From the NCBI GenBank assembly GCA_030062745.1, contig CP099848.1:22570378-22634377 (forward strand): DNA of 64,000 bases. The letters run 5' to 3'. Shown here one piece after another: positions 3,481 through 57,917 of the stretch. The notes beneath the pieces were generated by a model. The model saw nothing but the letters and a program-made list of their open reading frames with translations. It made no database searches and was not told the DNA's origin. How positions within the stretch are numbered: position 1 is the stretch's first letter; every line of letters starts with the position of its first letter. This stretch comes from Capitulum mitella (taxonomy: Eukaryota; Arthropoda; Thecostraca; Pollicipedomorpha; Pollicipedidae). Made by a program: the position numbers and the translations under genes.

Positions 3481-3904
3481 AGGTGTATCCATTTGTCCTT
3501 TTATGGGCCGTTTCGCAATTTATTCGTTTGGCACTCTTACATGTCTACACGTTGCCATCTTGCCGTTCGCCATTGTCACATGTCGCCTATTTTACACGTC
3601 GCCATTTAACCATTCGCCATTAAGGCTGTCGCCATTTTGGCATGTCGCCTTTTTTGCACGTCGCCACTTGGCCATTCGCCATTTAGCCGTTCGCCATTTT
3701 GGCACGTCACCTTCTTCACATGTCGCCATTTGGCCATTCGCCATCTAGCAGTCCGACATTTTGGCATGCCGCCATTTTTACATGTCATTTGGCCATTCGC
3801 CATTTAGTCGTTCGTCATTTTAGCATGTCGCCATTTTTACATGTCGCCATGCAGCGTTCGCCACCTGGCATTCGTCATTTTTACATTCGCCATTTTACCC
3901 TAGT

Positions 3905-17009: not shown

Positions 17010-18690
17010 GCGGAGAGACGGGACCGCGCTGTGGAGCGAGAGACGGGACCGCGCTGTGGGGCGAGAGACGGGACGGACCGCGCTGTGGAGCGAGAGACGG
17101 GACGGTCTGCGCTGTGGGGCGAGAGACGGGACGGACCGCGCTGTGGAGCGAGAGACGGGACCGCGCTGTGGGGCAAGAGACGGGACGGACCGCGCTGTGG
17201 AGCGAGAGACGGGACGGACCGCGCTGTGGGGCGAGAGACGGGACGGACCGCGCTGTGGAGCGAGAGACGGGACGGATCGGCTGTGAGCGAGAGAGGGACG
17301 GACTGCGCTGTGGGGCGAGAGACGGGACGGACCGCGCTGTGGGGCGAGAGACGGGACGGACCGTGCTGTGGAGCGAGAGACGGGACCGCGCTGTGAGCGA
17401 GAGACGGGACGGACCGCGCTGTGGAGCGAGAGACGGGACGGACCGCGCTGTGGAGCGAGAGACGGGACGGACCGCGCTGTGGGGCGAGAGACGGGACGGA
17501 CTGCGCTGTGGAGCGAGAGACGGGACGGACCGCGCTGTGGAGCGAGAGACGGGACGGACCACACTGTGGAGCGAGAGACGGGACGGACCACGCTGTGGGG
17601 CGAGAGACGGGACTGCGCTGTGGGGCGAGAGACGGGACGGACCGCGCTGTGGAGCGAGAGACGGGACGGACCGCGCTGTGGGGCGAGAGACGGGACGGAC
17701 CGCGCTGTGGAGCGAGAGACGGGACCGCGCTGTGGAGCGAGAGACGGGACGGACCGCGCTGTGGAGCGAGAGACGGGACGGACCACACTGTGGAGCGAGA
17801 GACGGGACGGACCACGCTGTGGGGCGAGAGACGGGACTGCGCTGTGGGGCGAGAGACGGGACGGACCGCGCTGTGGAGCGAGAGACGGGACGGACCACGC
17901 TGTGGGGCGAGAGACGGGACGGACCACACTGTGGAGCGAGAGACGGGACGGACCACGCTGTGGGGCGAGGGAGGTCCGCGCTGTGGGGCGAGAGACGGGA
18001 CGGACTGCGCTGTGGAGCGAGAGACGGGACGGACCGCGCTGTGGAGCGAGAGACGGGACGGACCACACTGTGGAGCGAGAGAGGACTGCGCTGTGGAGCG
18101 AGACGGGACGGACCGCGCTGTGGAGCGAGAGACGGGACGGACCGCGCTGTGGGGCGAGAGACGGGACGGACCGCGCTGTGGAGCGAGAGACGGGACGGAC
18201 CACACTGTGGAGCGAGAGACGGGACTGCGCTGTGGGGCGAGAGACGGGACGGACCGCGCTGTGGAGCGAGAGACGGGACGGACCACACTGTGGAGCGAGA
18301 GACGGGACTGCGCTGTGGAGCGAGAGACGGGACGGACCGCGCTGTGGAGCGAGAGACGGGACGGACTGCGCTGTGGAGCGAGAGACGGGACGGACCGCGC
18401 TGTGGAGCGAGAGACGGGACGGACCGCGCTGTGGAGCGAGAGACGGGACGGACCACGCTGTGGGGCGAGAGACGGGACTGCGCTGTGGAGCGAGAGACGG
18501 GACGGACCGCGCTGTGGAGCGAGAGACGGGACGGACTGCGCTGTGGAGCGAGAGACGGGACGGACCACACTGTGGAGCGAGAGACGGGACGGACTGCGCT
18601 GTGGAGCGAGAGACGGGACGGACTGCGCTGTGGAGCGAGAGACGGGACGGACCGCGCTGTGGGCCGAGAGACGGGACGGACCACACTGTC
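17010..18690 (+). repeat. 29-bp GC-rich minisatellite, ~58 units
   Basis: The unit is GGAGCGAGAGACGGGACGGA followed by CCGCGCTGT (29 bp), with 25-bp variants lacking one 4-bp step (ACGGGACCGCG or ACGGGACTGCG). Units vary mainly at GGAGCG/GGGGCG and at CCGCGCTG/CTGCGCTG/CCACGCTG/CCACACTG. Because 29 is not a multiple of three and the unit rarely has a stop, long stretches of all six frames are open (up to about 660 codons). These frames are by-products of the repeat, not genes. Flanking sequence is also GC-rich. Confidence 0.95.
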
Positions 18691-49170: not shown

Positions 49171-49297
49171 GAGCCTTGGACTGCAAGCAGTCGACGTCTG
49201 GAGAAGTCCGCAGCTGTATGTGGTCGGCACATCACCCCTGTGTGTCCGGATACCGGGTCTCAGTCCCGGCCAGCGGCGGCTCTGTCAGCTGCGACAG
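49171..49297 (+). CDS. Wnt5: Wnt5 exon 2
   Basis: Acceptor TTCGTTGCAG precedes 49171; the first base completes Met23, then residues 24-65 follow in phase, ending CQLRQ at donor GTCAGT (49298). The peptide has SLG near the start and YVVGTSPLC...PGLSPGQRRLC, matching the Wnt5 segment in which YIIGAQPLC is followed by AGLSQGQKKLC. The two cysteines (C47, C61) are conserved Wnt positions. Exon 3 follows in phase 0 with DHM, as vertebrate Wnt5 has at the same junction. The last 56 bases of the exon plus the donor start a 77-bp unit repeated downstream; only the first copy keeps the Wnt5 codons, so it is taken as the real exon end. Confidence 0.88.
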
Positions 49298-49445
49298 GTC
49301 AGTGGACATGGTCTCTCTGTGTCCGGATACCGGGCCTCAGTCTCCGCCAGCGGCGGCTCTGTCAGCTGCGACAGGTCAGTGGACATGGTCCCTCTGTGTC
49401 CGGATACCGGACCTCAGTCTCCGCCAGCGGCGGCTCTGTCATACG
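49242..49445 (+). repeat. 77-bp triplication of exon 2 end and donor
   Basis: GTGTCCGGATACCGG starts at 49242, 49319 and 49396, exactly 77 bp apart. Copies 1 and 2 both contain CTGCGACAG|GTCAGTGGAC, so the splice donor is duplicated intact (49298 and 49375). Copy 3 breaks before the donor. Copies 2 and 3 have changed Wnt5 codons (SPG to SLR/SPP-like), consistent with lost coding constraint. Splicing at copy 2 would add 77 nt and shift the frame. Confidence 0.9.
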
Positions 49446-50130: not shown

Positions 50131-50463
50131 ATTCCAAAGTCGCAATCTATTGAGCATGGAAGTGGAACAGGGTTTTTTTTGCCAAAAATGGTCCCAATCT
50201 TCTCTCGAGGCTTGCTGACAGCAGTGCGTCGGTGCCCTGTGGCGCGGACTGTCCGCTCTCCTCTCGCTCCTCTCGGTCACTGTGGTGCTCACAGCCATTC
50301 GGACGAATCCATTCGGACTCGGAACGGATCCCCCCGAAACGCGGGATCAAGCACAAGTCTGCTGCATAGACGTCTGGTCCATGTGAGGGCCCGGAAATAG
50401 GAGCCGAGGCAGGGCCTCCTCTGACGTCACTGTCCACCCTGATACGCTTTTGACCGTCGACAG

Positions 50464-50593
50464 GACCACATGAGCAGCGTGGGCCGGGGAGCGCGGGCCG
50501 GTATTGCCGAGTGCCAGTACCAGTTCAGGAACAGCCGCTGGAACTGCTCCACCGTGGACGACGCCTCCGTGTTCGGACCCGTCCTGCGCATCC
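50464..50593 (+). CDS. Wnt5: Wnt5 exon 3
   Basis: Acceptor GTCGACAG ends at 50463; residues 66-108 plus one base of codon 109 follow, then donor GTGAGT at 50594. The peptide begins DHM and contains [18 protein letters not shown] followed by SVFGPVLRI, the highly conserved Wnt block with cysteines C82 and C93 and an N-glycosylation site (N92-C-S). STVD..SVFG is typical of the Wnt5 subfamily. The one-base overhang (C) joins exon 4 to give Pro109 and then SREAAF, parallel to SRETAF in vertebrate Wnt5. The donor is also the first unit of a 38-bp tandem array. Confidence 0.95.
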
Positions 50594-51245
50594 GTGAGTG
50601 TGATACCTCTGCTGCTCCTCCTCCTGTGTCCGTGAGTGTAACACCTCTGCTGCTGTTCCTCCTGTGTCTGTGAGTGTAACATCTGCTGTTGCTGTTCTTC
50701 CTGTGTCCGTGAGTGTAACACCTCTGCTGCTGCTCCTCCTGTGTCCGTGAGTGTGACACCTCTGCTGCTCCTCCTCCTGTGTCCGTGAGTGTAACACCTC
50801 TGCTGCTGTTCCTCCTGTGTCTGTGAGTGTAACATCTGCTGTTGCTGTATTTTCCTGTGTCCGTGAGTGTGACGCCTCTGCCGCTGCTCCTCCTGTGTCC
50901 GTGAATGCAATACCTCTGCCGCTGCTCCTTCTGTGTCCGTGAGTGTGACACCTCTGCTGCTGCTCCTCCTGTGTCCGTGAGTGTAACACCTCTGCTGCTC
51001 CTCCTCCTGTGTCCGTGAGTGTAACACCTCTGCTGCTGCTCCTCCTGCGTCCGTGAGTGTAACATCTGCTGTTGCTGTTCTTCCTGTGTCCATGAGTGTA
51101 ACACCTCTGCCGCTGCTCCTCCTGTGTCCGTGAGTGTGACACCTCTGCTGCTGCTCCTCCTGTGTCCGTGGGTGCAACACCTCTTCTGCTCCTCGTACGT
51201 GTACGTGAGTGTAACATGCTCATCTGTGAGAGGCAGTGTTCGTTA
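50594..51245 (+). repeat. 38-bp minisatellite of splice-donor-like units
   Basis: Starting exactly at the exon 3 donor, about 18 units follow with 37-40-bp spacing, mostly 38. The consensus is TGTCCGTGAGTGTAACACC, then TCTGCTGCTGCTCCTCC. GTGAGT is intact at 14 positions: 50594, 50632, 50670, 50709, 50747, 50785, 50823, 50863, 50939, 50977, 51015, 51053, 51130 and 51205. It is altered at 50901, 51092, 51168 and 51243. Each unit therefore has a good U1 site followed by a pyrimidine-rich stretch. The minus-strand open frames of 225-277 codons across the array are artefacts. Confidence 0.93.
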
Positions 51246-51299
51246 GTGTAACATCTCTGCTGCTCCTCTGTGGGAGGCCGTGTTCATGGGCTTAACACC

Positions 51300-53707
51300 T
51301 CTGTCGATGCGTCCATGAATGCAACACCTGTGCTGCTTGCTGAGGGCAGAGGAGACGGCTGCTAATCAGTGGTTTCAGTAGTTAAACAAGGATGGTTTCA
51401 ACCTGTGGTGAAATGGATGCTTCCAGTCCACTTGCATCTGGCTGGCAGGGGCCTAAGTATACGGATGTACGGAAGCCGTCGGTGGCAGAAATGACTTAGA
51501 AAAGAATTATTTGGTGGCAGATCGTTTGCCAGTTACCGAAAAAAAAAATATTTGGCTCACAGCGCTCGAAGGACTTTTGCTAGCGTCATCATTGAAGCAT
51601 TTCTTCTGCCTTGATGGTGTCAGTTATTCGCAGTGGCCCCGGGATATCATAATGTAGCGTTTGCTTCTCCTAGCGAAGGATCCGGCCGTGATGCAAAACT
51701 AACTAGCCTTGGCAGAAACTATGTTCTACTGCCATCAGTAATATCTGAGTTGTCCGTAATCGCCTGGTGACAGTTCGTGGTGGCACCACACATTTCAAAG
51801 GGCAAAACCAAGTCCGTAGTTCCGTACATCAGCCAGTTTTAAGCGCCAGAAACCCAGCTCGAGCCTATAAATATCCATATTGTCGTGGACTTCTTATGGA
51901 ACAGACATTTTGTCGATGTGGCGATCTGGTGTATTGCTGATGCAAGAAACGGAACTTGTGGTGTATCAGGGACAGCCAATGTATTTTTAGCTGAATGATA
52001 GCGTTCTTGCCTCTTCATTACACTGCTTAGAAATTATTTGGTCCCCTTTGGATGGATAATTTTAGCAGAACATTGGTAATGAGTTGACCTCAATTTGTTC
52101 GGTTGTATTGCAAACAGGCGGCGGAGCCCGGCAGCCGAAGTGGTTCGGTGCCTGTGACGCCGGAGAGCTGGTCAAGTTCCGGTTCTGCTCCGGGGGCTCA
52201 AATCCATGTGGCGCGGCTGTTCAAACGTCGGGTGTTCAAACGTCGCCTGCTCCGTTCCCCATGCTTATGAAGTTTTTTCTATGATCCCGAAAGTAAATTG
52301 TCATCGTGATGTGTTTCACGAACCAGGTTAATCCACAATGCACCTCTATTATGGGAAAAGCGCGTCTGGCTCCCATATGCATTCACCCGGATTCCAGCGG
52401 GCGACCCCCTATCTCGCCACTCTGTGTAGGACTGGGGTTGCGTTGGTGACCAGTTGGGCCCGCCATCCCAGGTCGGTAACAAAGTAATGTCTTATAACCT
52501 CTGCAGTGGCTTGGCGTGGCTTAACAAAACACAAACGACGTCCGTACTACAAGGCTGAACTTTTTTGTTAGCATTCTTGGTAGTCGGTACGCATGACCCG
52601 GGAAGGCAAGTGCAGACAACTGCTTGAGATAGCGCTTAATCAGCTAGAATTGTATCCCTATAACCATCGATAAAAACCAGAACGCTGTTTGTTGCCTTGA
52701 CGATCCGACAAGAGGTGACGTTTCACTTCTTTTCAATGCGCGTACAAGATGCATTTGTTTTGTCTGGCTTTCGAAATATGCTCGGGTCATTACGACCGCC
52801 AATTAGAGAGAATGACTTGACAACTAGCGGCACTAGCAAAAAGGCGGCAGTCGTTCTATACTCGCTGCTGAATTGCGGAGCGGTGATGGAAAAACAGCTA
52901 AAGAGGCCGGTAAAAGTGCCGACTCTTTGCTCCGCCCAGCGTAACAGCCGTGCCCGGCGTGCCAGGCATGCGACAGCGGTGATGGCGTCACATTTGGCCG
53001 GACAGTCAACAGCAGGCCCTGGACTCACATCCTCCGCTCGGCGAGGCAGCTTCGAAAAACCCGTCTCCCTTACACTATGGATTAACAAGTAAATGACGCC
53101 GGTTAACCGAGCCGTTCCACAGTCGTTTGACGTCATTCAGCGACAAGCGACTTCCCTGGGTTTTACGCCGGTCTTATGACCTCCTTGGCTGTGCCAGAAA
53201 GTGCCTGCCTTTCGCTGATGGATGGCCCATTGGTCTCAATTAATAAGTGCTTGCCGTAACGATAATGGTGACGGATGGCAATGCACGTCGGGCTTGCCGG
53301 CAACCTAACCTATTCAGTGGTGATGCATAAATCAACGCCGAAACGAGGCATTATTTGCGGTGGAGAAGCGGTTATTTGCGGAACTCACCATCCGTTTTCT
53401 GGAACGTCATACGGGTTTCGTTGTATTCATCTCCGAACACGGAAGTTGGCACACTCTATTGCAGCCGTTTAGGTACATGAGCAGACTGATCTGACTCGAC
53501 TGGTATCACGCCACTGTTAACTGTCAAATCTCTCCCCTAGCACAGCAGCGAACTTGACCCGGACTGACGCCAAGTCAGGTATCGAAACGAGAAAACACGC
53601 GCTCTTTCGCTTGGTCTTCTTTGCCGGAACTGAAGATCACTGGAGCCGAGCTGACTGAGGCAGAGGTCGGTGTCTGAACTGGGCTGACCCGGCCTGATTC
53701 CCGACAG
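51300..53707. other. Wnt5 intron 3, remainder
   Basis: Mostly featureless. A GC-rich, exon-like stretch (52118 to about 52260) follows a pyrimidine-rich acceptor-like sequence ending TTGCAAACAG, but its product matches no Wnt segment. An open frame at 52697-53092 has no known domain. Confidence 0.35.
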
Positions 53708-53888
53708 CGTCCCGGGAGGCAGCGTTCGCTCACTCGATTGCCGCCGCCGGCGTGGTGATGTCCGTGGCCAGGGCCTGTCGCGACGGCCAGCTGGCCTCCT
53801 GCGGCTGCTCGAGGTCACCGAGACCGGACCATCTCGACCCGGAGTGGGCCTGGGGCGGATGCGGCGACAACATCGAGTACGGCTACAG
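53708..53888 (+). CDS. Wnt5: Wnt5 exon 4
   Basis: Acceptor CCCGACAG ends at 53707; two bases complete codon 109, residues 110-168 follow, and AG of codon 169 precedes donor GTGGGC (53889). The peptide has [16 protein letters not shown], then [16 protein letters not shown] and [16 protein letters not shown], all hallmark Wnt blocks; C132, C140, C142 and C160 sit at conserved places. The RP-x-x-L-x-x-(E/D)W-x-WGGCGDNI stretch is closest to Wnt5. The overhang AG joins the G of exon 5 to give Arg169 followed by FAKNFV. Confidence 0.95.
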
Positions 53889-54667
53889 GTGGGCACCTCC
53901 CGCCGCCTCCGAGGCGCCGACGTCGAGATCACTGCCTGGCGGTCAGAGGTCAGAGGTCAGCATAGTCCGGGTCACTGGGTCACTTGTCGGCGCTGGGGAG
54001 GTCCAGTCGGCTTGGCTGGATGTTTCGGAGATGTTGTAATTAATGGCCATTGGTCGGCGCCCTGTTATAGATACCGTGTTGGGAATGATTTATGTACAGC
54101 TCTGGAGGACAGCTGTGGCCGACCTGAAGCTGGTAATGCCATGCTACGTAAGCACTATATCTTGAACTGACACGTGTTCCTGCACCATTTGCTTCGTGGA
54201 ATGGCTTAGGTTATATCAGACTCAGCTCTGCCCGCCATAAACGGGCTATGTTATTTCACAGTCATCGAACCGGCTAATAATTCTGTTAATTCGGCCGTTA
54301 ATTCTCTTTGTGGATAGGTGTTTCAGAAACACAGTTAACTTCGACGTAAAATAGTGGCATGCGGATTTTCACTCAAATATATCCTTAGACGGTCATGGGT
54401 AATATCTTCTGTGAAGAACAAGTAGAGCGTAACGACTAAAAGCTACTGTCGTTTGGTCAGGGAGCGATCTGAGGTACAGCTGGACCGCCGTTGAGCTTGA
54501 CGGTCATCTCCTTGGTCGTAGCCGGCGTAAGACGAACTTCACCGAAACAAAAGATACGTCCACGTGGGGGGGGGGAGGCTTGATATCATGTTACTTAACA
54601 TGACGTCTGGTGGAAGACATCTGTCAGCCGCAGCAGACGTCTGCCAACCAATGTCCTTACCTGGCAG

Positions 54668-54779
54668 GTTCGCGAAGAACTTTGTGAACATCCGTGAGAA
54701 GGAGAGGCATTATCGACCCGGCTCGGCCCGCCACGGCAGGGCGCTGATGAACCTGCACAACAACAAGGCCGGCGCCAAG
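54668..54779 (+). CDS. Wnt5: Wnt5 exon 5 (last exon seen)
   Basis: Acceptor TACCTGGCAG ends at 54667; one base completes Arg169 and residues 170-206 follow, with FAKNFVNIREKER, then GRALMNLHNNKAGAK. This is the Wnt helix that normally reads LMNLHNNEAGR; Glu is replaced by Lys here. The junction after AGAK is at the conserved phase-0 position of Wnt5 genes, but the donor GTGCAT is weak and the frame stays open to 55010, so the exon may end later. The expected continuation (C-K-C-H-G-V-S-G-S-C with the acylated serine, then the C-terminal cysteine-rich domain) was not found up to 64000. Confidence 0.9.
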
Positions 54780-54800
54780 GTGCATCTAACCACGGTGGTG

Positions 54801-54920
54801 ACTGTCGGCTGCAGGGTCGGCCGTCCGTGCTGGCGACTGTCGGCTGCACTGTCAGCCGTCCGTGCTGGCGACTGTCGGCTGCACGGTCAGCTGTCCTTGC
54901 CGATGACTATCGGCTGCAGG
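54801..54920 (+). repeat. 35-bp minisatellite after exon 5
   Basis: ACTGTCGGCTGC recurs at 54801, 54836, 54871 and (as ACTATCGGCTGC) 54906, an exact 35-bp period, starting about 21 bp after the exon 5 donor. Confidence 0.9.
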
Positions 54921-57917
54921 TCACGAGGCCAGCTGTTGGGGCGCTACGTCACAACTGTTGAATCAAGTGGCCAGCTGTTGTTAGGGGGGCTAGTCGCTGA
55001 GTGCGGTTAGCTGCCGACTCAATGACGCGAGGTCAGCGGTAGGGTCAGGAAATCACTGGCTGACTCAGATCGGCAATGGTTTCGCCAAACCTGCCGCTGG
55101 GTCAGGGCAGGTTTGGGTACCAAGATCACGTGTGGGATTGGGAGATCAGGTGCCGACGGGTGAGATTCACGTCAGTCAGATGGTGGGGTTTTCAAGCTGG
55201 CCGACGGTTCGCTGGTCGTCCGTTAGGCCAGGGTACTGGGACCAGGTCAGAGAGCCATGTGGCGCTTTTCAGAAGCCCTGCGTGTCAGGTAGGTCATAGT
55301 GAGTGAGGCGCTACCGCAGCCCGGACCCCAGTCCTGGGGTCGCAGCTTCGGGGACACTCGGGCGTCGTGCGACCCGTTTCGGGGAGATATGCCGGATTGG
55401 TCAGGCTACATGGTATGTCATCCCTACGAAATGGGCATCTGCAAGGTGGATGTGATGTTGATGCATATGAAGCATATCAAAGACTGAAAAAAGTTAATAG
55501 CCGTTTTCACAACGCGAAAATTCCACTGCTTAAATTTCTAATAAGGAAGTGGAAATTTCGGTCCAAATGTAAAAAATAAGGTATTTTGCAGACAAGTCCT
55601 CAATAGAATAAGAGAAAAACGGTTTCGTGCATAAATGAAAATCATTGTCATTTCGGAACGAGAACATTACTTACTTTACCCACAAAACAACTCATTGCCA
55701 GATCCAGAATTAACAGCTGACTTTCAGATCTGGCATCATATCCGCATCGCTAAGCCTGGCTGCTTTTACGGGTGTTTGTGCTCGAACATTTGTGCGTACT
55801 TGAGACCAGTTTGTTCTGTTAAAGAGTTGCTTCGGAATATACGTGAACATAAGGTTGGATGTTATCAACAGCCCAAATATTTCGGCACGACTGCATATTC
55901 TTTTGTAAGTGACTGTAAGTGTAAGTCAATCAGTCACTGACTCATTGACGAAGGCATATCAAGTCGTGCCCAAAACATTTTAGACTTTTATCTTATCAAA
56001 CCTTTCTACTTATGCATACTTTGGAACAACTGAATCACCTGCGCCTGGGTAACATTGCCATTACAGACCCATTCATGTTTTCTTTGTGTTGAACTTGTTT
56101 TGAACTGATGCTACAGGTATTCATTTTACTGAAATCACTTTGGACATTTATCCTGTTTCTGTCTCTTTTAAATTGCGGTTGTTATACAATAACTACTGGT
56201 TTATGCATTCACCATTGCACTGCCGCTTGTACTGTTGTGCATTTTCTTACAAACATTCTTGGTGGATTTCTTCCAACCATCTACAATGTTGAATTCCATC
56301 CCCAAGTTCAGGGAAGTGCATAGCTTCTTGAGATTACTTGAGCTTACCTGTGCAAGTACACAAATGTCAGTTTTTAGTGATAAAAATTTGGGAAGCATGG
56401 CTCAAGTATATGCAGCAATCTCAAACTGATGGTGTTCCCTGTTCCCTCTCTAACCCTAGGATCCCACAAATAAATGCTAACGTAAGAACACAGTTAACAT
56501 GTCTTGTTTCAAACCAGTTCTGGAGCAAGCAAGTTGGAGGGACGCACTATGAATTCGTACCATTGCAACAATGCACATTTGAAAGCAAATACGGTTTTCA
56601 TTTTAAAGATAAGATACCAAAAGCAAGCGAGGTGACATGATTTGTATCCTGACCAGGTGATTGTCGCTGTTCCCCTCACAGTCCTATTGCTCCATGAGGT
56701 TTTCCAGACCAGACAAGCTCATCCAAGGCGAGGGATTGGCTCTTTGCGCTTATGGTTGAGACATGGATGAAAAAATATAATTGTGACGTACAGATAGCCC
56801 TTTATCATGTCTGTATGTCGTCATGATCTGGGTGATGATCATGATTTGCTACCACCAAAACAGGAACGTTATCAAAGTTGGCATGACCAAAGCCATTTTT
56901 GGACTGCTTCTGACGGTGTTGAGCATATAAGGGATAATTGCGGGTAAGGCCGAAGGCCGAGTGAGGTCTCATTTCAATTAGCAGAAAAAGAAATCAAATG
57001 GACTAGCGCGGCCCGTGCTGGCCACACGGGCATTTTCCGGTAGCTTAGAATTTTGCAACCATTGTGCACCAAATCATGAGGTTTTCAAAAGAAGATAGCT
57101 CATTTCGCGAAGTTTTATCTATTTTCATTTGCACTGGGTCAGCCTGTAAGCTGTTTCTGTCACGTGACTATTTCAGGAGTAATGTTTTCACTTTTGGCCA
57201 ATTTTCCTGGGGCGTTTTTGAACCGCATAGTAATGACAGCAAACATCAGCATGGTCACCGTGACGTTAAAACTTATAATTATTCGGACTCAAAGTACTGA
57301 AATAGATCGATGAATATCTTTCTCTATTGTAAAATAAATCAAGATAAAGAAATGATGCAAACAGTCACAAAGTAAGCCTTGCTCGTCTTGCACCCCGCAG
57401 AGCGTCTGGCTGGCGCTATAATGATTCCATAACTCATAGAACGGGCACGCTGCCTGCATTATGGCTGATGGGGCCATGGTAGGTCCCATGCATTTCCTGA
57501 TGTCAGTAACCTTGAGCTTCTTTCGTGTACGAAGTCGACACGTGCTGACCTCATGCTTTCATCTTGTGTGTGGGAAGGATAACTGTTCTCTCTAGACGTA
57601 AAGATTGCTCGAGTTCGCCTTGATAGGGGAAATTGGCCCACATGGATCGCAACATTTTCAATGCTACCATATAATGTTGTTTACGAAGACCTGAACTTAC
57701 CTCGTGGAAGCCTAGTGAACCCGTCCTGTTGAGGCAAGTTAAGATCGCCAAAGCCGCCATTTATGTATCATCGTTCCCTCTCACGGAAATAATAGGCGTC
57801 AGCAGGAAGCAGATGCAATTTGCGCAGTCCCAGACACTATGCGATGTTCGAATCTAAATCAAACCGATATCTGCATCAGTAAACCCATCCAAATATCCGT
57901 TAATACTACATTTTTAT

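Follow-up and report, generated by a model that had tools for sequence, protein, structure and literature searches.

The plus strand of the 64,000-nt stretch of DNA analysed here (the window) holds part of a Wnt5 gene, in which we placed four consecutive exons. Compared with solved structures, exon 3 had its best matches in Wnt-5a (E about 2e-16), and against Pfam it matched the wnt family (E 1.6e-12). The other three exons were located by tblastn with a human WNT5A query; exon 2 by itself had no Pfam match. The exons and the donor on which this work centres are as follows.

49172 to 49297, plus strand: Wnt5 exon 2, with an inferred 5' end; found by tblastn with human WNT5A; joins in frame
50464 to 50593, plus strand: Wnt5 exon 3, 130 nt, ending in phase 1; Wnt-5a structure match, Pfam wnt match and in-frame joins to exons 2 and 4
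50594 to 50599, plus strand: GTGAGT of the first array unit, the true exon 3 donor, from frame continuity with exon 4
53708 to 53888, plus strand: Wnt5 exon 4, located by tblastn; joins in frame; Pfam wnt match (E 8.6e-19)
54668 to 54779, plus strand: Wnt5 exon 5, located by tblastn; joins in frame; Pfam wnt match of 16.8 bits, under the curated cutoff of 20.3 bits

Spliced at the inferred borders, exons 2 to 5 encode a single continuous Wnt5-like protein, and the junction between exons 3 and 4 is in phase, with exon 4 completing the split codon (C/CG). Because the four exons join into one continuous frame, 50594 is a sound exon 3 donor. The intron at 53889-54667 separates GYR and FAK of Wnt5; we take it to be missing from human WNT5A, and it could help to place the organism, whose Wnt5 protein presumably resembles that of arthropods. 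With E 0.1 as the limit, Pfam returned nothing for seven further long open reading frames, picked from 80 listed in the window.

A 38-bp minisatellite runs from this donor into intron 3. Tandem Repeats Finder places it at 50591-51216 (period 38 bp, 16.4 copies, 86% matches), and our segmentation resolves 16 full units, followed by a 17th at 51205 that is truncated and by four decayed units, the last of which starts at 51315. Units were located by their likeness to GTGAGTGTAAC, a procedure that biases the tail in favour of GTGAGT.

50591 to 51216, plus strand: 38-bp minisatellite of 16 full units and a truncated one, with 14 exact GTGAGT
50594 to 50862, plus strand: probable block duplication in which units 1-3 (50594-50708) recur as units 5-7 (50747-50862), from identities and alignment
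50671 to 50673, plus strand: first in-frame stop when exon 3 is read on into the array, from the unit segmentation
51217 to 51350, plus strand: decayed array tail, units 18-21, with GTGAGA, GTTAGT, ATGGGC and ATGAAT; right end set by eye

The first-pass annotation had the array opening exactly at the Wnt5 exon 3 donor and carrying 14 intact donor hexamers in 50594-51245. Both statements held: the donor is confirmed by the reading frame, the repeat finder starts the array at 50591, and we counted exactly 14 exact GTGAGT, the first being the exon 3 donor itself and the other 13 extra copies. They are carried by 13 of the 16 full units and by the truncated unit, the remaining three full units having GTGAAT, ATGAGT and GTGGGT instead. 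The repeat match opens three bases into exon 3, the exon/intron border lying at 50593/50594; a three-base exonic match could be due to chance, and it is fair to say that the array begins at the donor.

The sequence around the copies is less uniform than had been described. The TCC context holds in its shorter form, with TCC/GTGAGTGT at 11 of the 14 donors; the full TCC/GTGAGTGTAAC was overstated, occurring at only 6, beside 5 with TCC/GTGAGTGTGA, 2 with TCT/GTGAGTGTAAC and 1 with TAC/GTGAGTGTAAC. Allowing at most one mismatch, the window has 16 occurrences of TCCGTGAGTGT, all but one inside the array, against a mean of 0.99 and a maximum of 4 in 100 shuffles. TCC precedes 15 of the 21 units, unit 1 included, the exceptions being units 3, 7 and 17-20. 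Exon 3 itself ends in TCC rather than the usual AG before its donor (50591-50593), and the split codon encodes Pro; it is conceivable that this exon end was converted from the array. Likeness between the unit and the exon 3 end beyond TCC was considered and dropped, 160 of 882 TCC-ending control sequences scoring as high. On the minus strand, three frames of 252-290 aa in 50347-51283 stay open across the array; presumably the 38-bp unit contains no stop on that strand, and the frames are most likely meaningless.

Splicing from any downstream copy would be costly to the protein. It had been proposed that most downstream donors would shift the frame, and the outcome is stronger than that: 10 of the 13 exact downstream donors shift it, the other three (units 5, 10 and 13) read through the in-frame stop at 50671, and none retains an intact reading frame, all 13 reaching a premature stop. 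From donor 50632 the stop falls 130 nt before the exon 4/5 junction, from donor 50670 it falls near the start of exon 5, with about 80 nt left to the donor of that exon, and from the remaining 11 it is the one at 50671, at least 216 nt before the exon 4/5 junction. Under the usual 50-nt rule, all 13 downstream-donor products would be NMD targets if the organism follows it.

We compared the copies with the true donor by their calculated pairing energy to the 5' end of U1. Twelve of the 14 array sites, including the true donor, came out at -7.7 kcal/mol and the other two at -7.4. Because the copies pair equally or nearly so, the first donor has no U1-pairing edge; if it wins, its position beside the exon is probably why. 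The same calculation gave -9.1 for the exon 2 donor, -10.3 for exon 4 and -5.3 for exon 5, placing the exon 3 donor below exons 2 and 4 and above exon 5 in strength. Calculated folding of the array region is weaker than that of its shuffles (z +2.4), of which 19 in 20 fold at least as well, and we rejected a structured RNA at the array on this result. Nowhere in the window did an Rfam family attain its gathering score, and a bacterial promoter and terminator scan, of little relevance here, returned nothing.

These values bear on a reading in which the array is a reservoir of usable donors: some transcripts would splice from downstream copies, the premature stops would lower the yield of productive Wnt5 mRNA, and repeat number would tune the extent. 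The equal or nearly equal pairing of the 14 sites speaks for this reading, as do the pairing of the exon 3 donor, weaker than two of its three neighbours, and the weak folding, which may leave the sites accessible. There is also a precedent in the human IFI6 minisatellite, which supplies extra donors, two downstream units being used (PMC4526556). We nevertheless consider such a reservoir distinctly improbable. GTGAGT is no better conserved than its neighbours in the 16 full units, and comparable amphioxus arrays are suggested, from Adh3 data and globin RT-PCR, to leave splicing undisturbed, with cryptic use allowed (PMC3087553), a view repeated for Adh and troponin C in a second paper (PMC3902484).

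The 14 potential U1 sites in about 620 bp suggest another role, in which the array loads many U1 snRNPs and thereby defines exon 3, whose own donor is modest, or silences premature polyadenylation in intron 3. Such binding is possible on paper, and a review describes suppression of intronic polyadenylation by U1 (PMC3826338). The proposal that the array suppresses premature polyadenylation found no target in the one signal form tested, A[AT]TAAA being absent from the 3114 nt of intron 3. It is likewise absent from intron 4 (779 nt), occurs once in intron 2 (1166 nt) and eight times in the part of intron 5 within the window (9221 nt); the apparent deficit in intron 3 is small. Judged by A[AT]TAAA only, U1 silencing has no obvious target after the array. 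The array sites also lack pairing at positions -1 to -3 in the usual register, and the full units show no conservation signal. A U1-loading function is, in our judgement, very unlikely.

Retention of GTGAGT in most units had been taken as a hint of either selection or recent spread. The 16 full units lend no support to selection on the hexamer, though they give little power to exclude it. Three of the six GTGAGT columns vary among these units, as do 16 of the other 32 (Fisher P=1.0). As a proxy for independent changes we took variants present in a single unit, which account for 3 of 96 GTGAGT cells and 8 of 512 others (P=0.39); all minority cells amount to 3 of 96 and 40 of 512 (P=0.13), a count by which the hexamer varies less. 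Many of the minority cells outside GTGAGT are common to units 3, 7 and 13 and are not independent; variants common to several units number none in the GTGAGT columns and 10 in the other 32. The intact hexamer is seen in 13 of the 16 full units against 9.8 predicted from the rate elsewhere, a rate that is inflated because variants are linked in units 3, 7 and 13.

We also ranked GTGAGT against all 38 six-base circular windows of the unit. In units 1-16, seven of the 38 equal or exceed it in the number of units that keep them intact; 14 do so among the 13 distinct units, and 5 among units 1-17 or all 21. Summed minority cells place GTGAGT among the lowest windows in units 1-16, where 4 of 38 are as low; 10 are as low among the distinct units, and 2 among units 1-17 or the whole set of 21. 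Counts that add the tail units favour GTGAGT somewhat, but those units were chosen by that very motif.

Recent spread, the other alternative, fared better. Units 1-3 and 5-7 are 97, 100 and 95% identical unit by unit, whereas units 4 and 8 are merely 92% identical, and the likely block 1-3 takes in the unit of the true donor. Three pairs match exactly (2 with 6, 3 with 13, 10 with 15), and the 16 full units comprise 13 distinct sequences. Mean unit identity peaks at a distance of ten units (0.958, 5 pairs), with all other distances between 0.845 and 0.900, and the array decays at its right edge. Block structure was judged from unit identities and alignment; the block-like similarity, true-donor unit included, fits recent spread. 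Growth by slippage or unequal exchange would explain the intact GTGAGT copies without function. The same features bear on the assembly itself, in which the number or order of units might be wrong, as in the aberrant assembly of one amphioxus array in a draft genome (PMC3087553). The 13 distinct sequences and the decay towards one end are unlike simple assembly stutter, and we regard an artefact as very unlikely.

Two further arrays lie at or near donors of the same gene, and Tandem Repeats Finder reported none at the exon 4 donor.

49236 to 49441, plus strand: second donor-straddling array, 77-bp unit of 62 nt exon and 15 nt intron, 2.7 copies
54796 to 54923, plus strand: 35-bp array, 3.7 copies, opening 16 nt past the exon 5 donor, which is not copied

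The exon 2 array contains one extra intact CGACAG/GTCAGT, in copy 2, with its donor at 49375; use of this donor would bring in a premature stop. Between copies 1 and 2 there are 5 differences over 77 positions, every one of them exonic.

The window is rich in repeats: merged arrays with a period of at least 9 number 32 and cover 8.8% of it. The exon 3 array could be a commonplace intronic minisatellite that adjoins a donor by accident. This view is compatible with our preferred explanation and disputes just one thing, a role of the border in promoting arrays. Two of the four Wnt5 donors lie inside an array (P=0.041), and three of four lie within 16 nt of one (P=0.004; sliding the four positions jointly gives 0.0085). 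The 16-nt limit was set after the data were seen, and these P values are suggestive only. Nor is GTGAGT enriched in the window's other arrays, where its density is 0.20 per kb on the plus strand against 0.21 outside, and 0 against 0.10 on the minus strand; by this measure we rejected a general enrichment of donors in arrays. Against mere coincidence, the donor belongs to the repeated unit in two consecutive exons, and we hold chance contact to be unlikely.

Other repeats in the window include a 29-bp minisatellite at 17021-18689 of about 59 copies, GC-rich, purine-skewed and open in several frames on both strands. Two more minisatellites, about 860 bp apart at 2354-2683 and 3546-3896, have the units AATGGCGA and TCGCCATT, which by eye look reverse-complementary to each other.

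Splice donors within minisatellites have been recognised before. The IFI6 gene (also 6-16 or G1P3) reportedly contains one with multiple donors, a finding credited to Turri in 1995, and its unit is said to be 12 bp. The Wnt5 array is alike in having minisatellite units that carry donors and unlike in that downstream donor use is reported for IFI6 (PMC4526556), whereas the Wnt5 array is known from DNA alone. TERT intron 6 holds VNTR6-1, an intronic minisatellite linked to splicing, which shares the 38-bp unit length and, by its title and the opening of its abstract, is not described as a donor array (PMC11830802); the equal unit length looks like a coincidence.

The closest class comprises the mirages of amphioxus genes, defined as tandem repeats over exon-intron borders (PMC3087553). 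Among them, the globin gene BflGb6 has an array at an acceptor border with 6 and 3 units in two haplotypes, BflGb9 has one at a donor border, and Adh3 is an earlier case with somatic instability, unit lengths spanning 10-72 bp (PMC3087553). Amphioxus PGBD5 has two arrays that coincide with or overlap splice sites, the first repeat abutting the 5' splice site (PMC3902484). The Wnt5 exon 3 array is alike in abutting its border (50591 versus 50593/50594) and in bearing 13 extra exact GTGAGT, much as many units of the amphioxus arrays retain the splice signal (PMC3087553, PMC3902484). It differs in that its unit holds at most three exonic bases (TCC), in its 16 copies, where 2-7 are given for the arrays of the globin genes and PGBD5 (PMC3087553, PMC3902484), and from BflGb6 in lying at a donor rather than an acceptor border. 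The exon 2 array, with both exonic and intronic sequence in its unit, fits the description of a mirage in full. We file the exon 3 array as a mirage-like splice-border minisatellite. No Wnt5 splice-border array appeared among the matches listed in the open-licence literature, and no relatives among bacterial and archaeal contigs or viral contigs.

Overall, we think it probable that the array is a near-neutral splice-border minisatellite derived from the Wnt5 exon 3 donor, with 50594 as the main donor. A 38-bp stretch with the donor, and perhaps the last three exon bases, would have been duplicated in tandem and then have grown by slippage or unequal exchange, sometimes in blocks that included the donor. 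The exon would set the left limit, where growth would disrupt coding sequence, while copies decay at the right. The copies would then be intronic passengers, the exon-adjacent 50594 most likely serving as main donor, and a transcript spliced from a downstream copy would be non-productive and probably NMD-prone. The growth mechanism, the main use of 50594 and near-neutrality are all inferred. The second array of the gene, which plainly straddles the exon 2 donor, supports this reading, as do the published amphioxus parallels. Against it, GTGAGT has no variant common to several units, fewer minority cells and more intact copies than the rate elsewhere predicts, and U1 pairing does not set the true donor apart from its copies, which leaves no obvious reason for the first to be preferred. 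The array is a real case of a known kind, most likely near-neutral, and its regulatory use is possible but unsupported.

The array alone reveals no new mechanism. It does offer a natural test of how the spliceosome chooses among fourteen donors that are nearly identical, and an example of the splice-border duplication that has been proposed as a route to new introns (PMC3087553). If the host is not a cephalochordate, it would also extend a phenomenon reported from amphioxus, with IFI6 as a human parallel (PMC3087553, PMC4526556).

Base composition bears on the identity of the host: CpG observed/expected in the window is 0.965 at about 49% GC, which together are not, we assume, what amphioxus would show, and a ratio of 0.965 is unlike that of a typical vertebrate. 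A more far-reaching possibility, which we rate as a long shot, is a length-tunable splicing rheostat in which unit number would set how large a share of Wnt5 transcripts is lost to premature stops; it is raised because U1 pairing is equal or nearly so across the 14 donors and all but the first are non-productive. If true, it would imply heritable and somatic variation in Wnt5 dose, and the arrays at or near three donors of this gene would exemplify a habit of the whole genome, perhaps in a lineage other than amphioxus.
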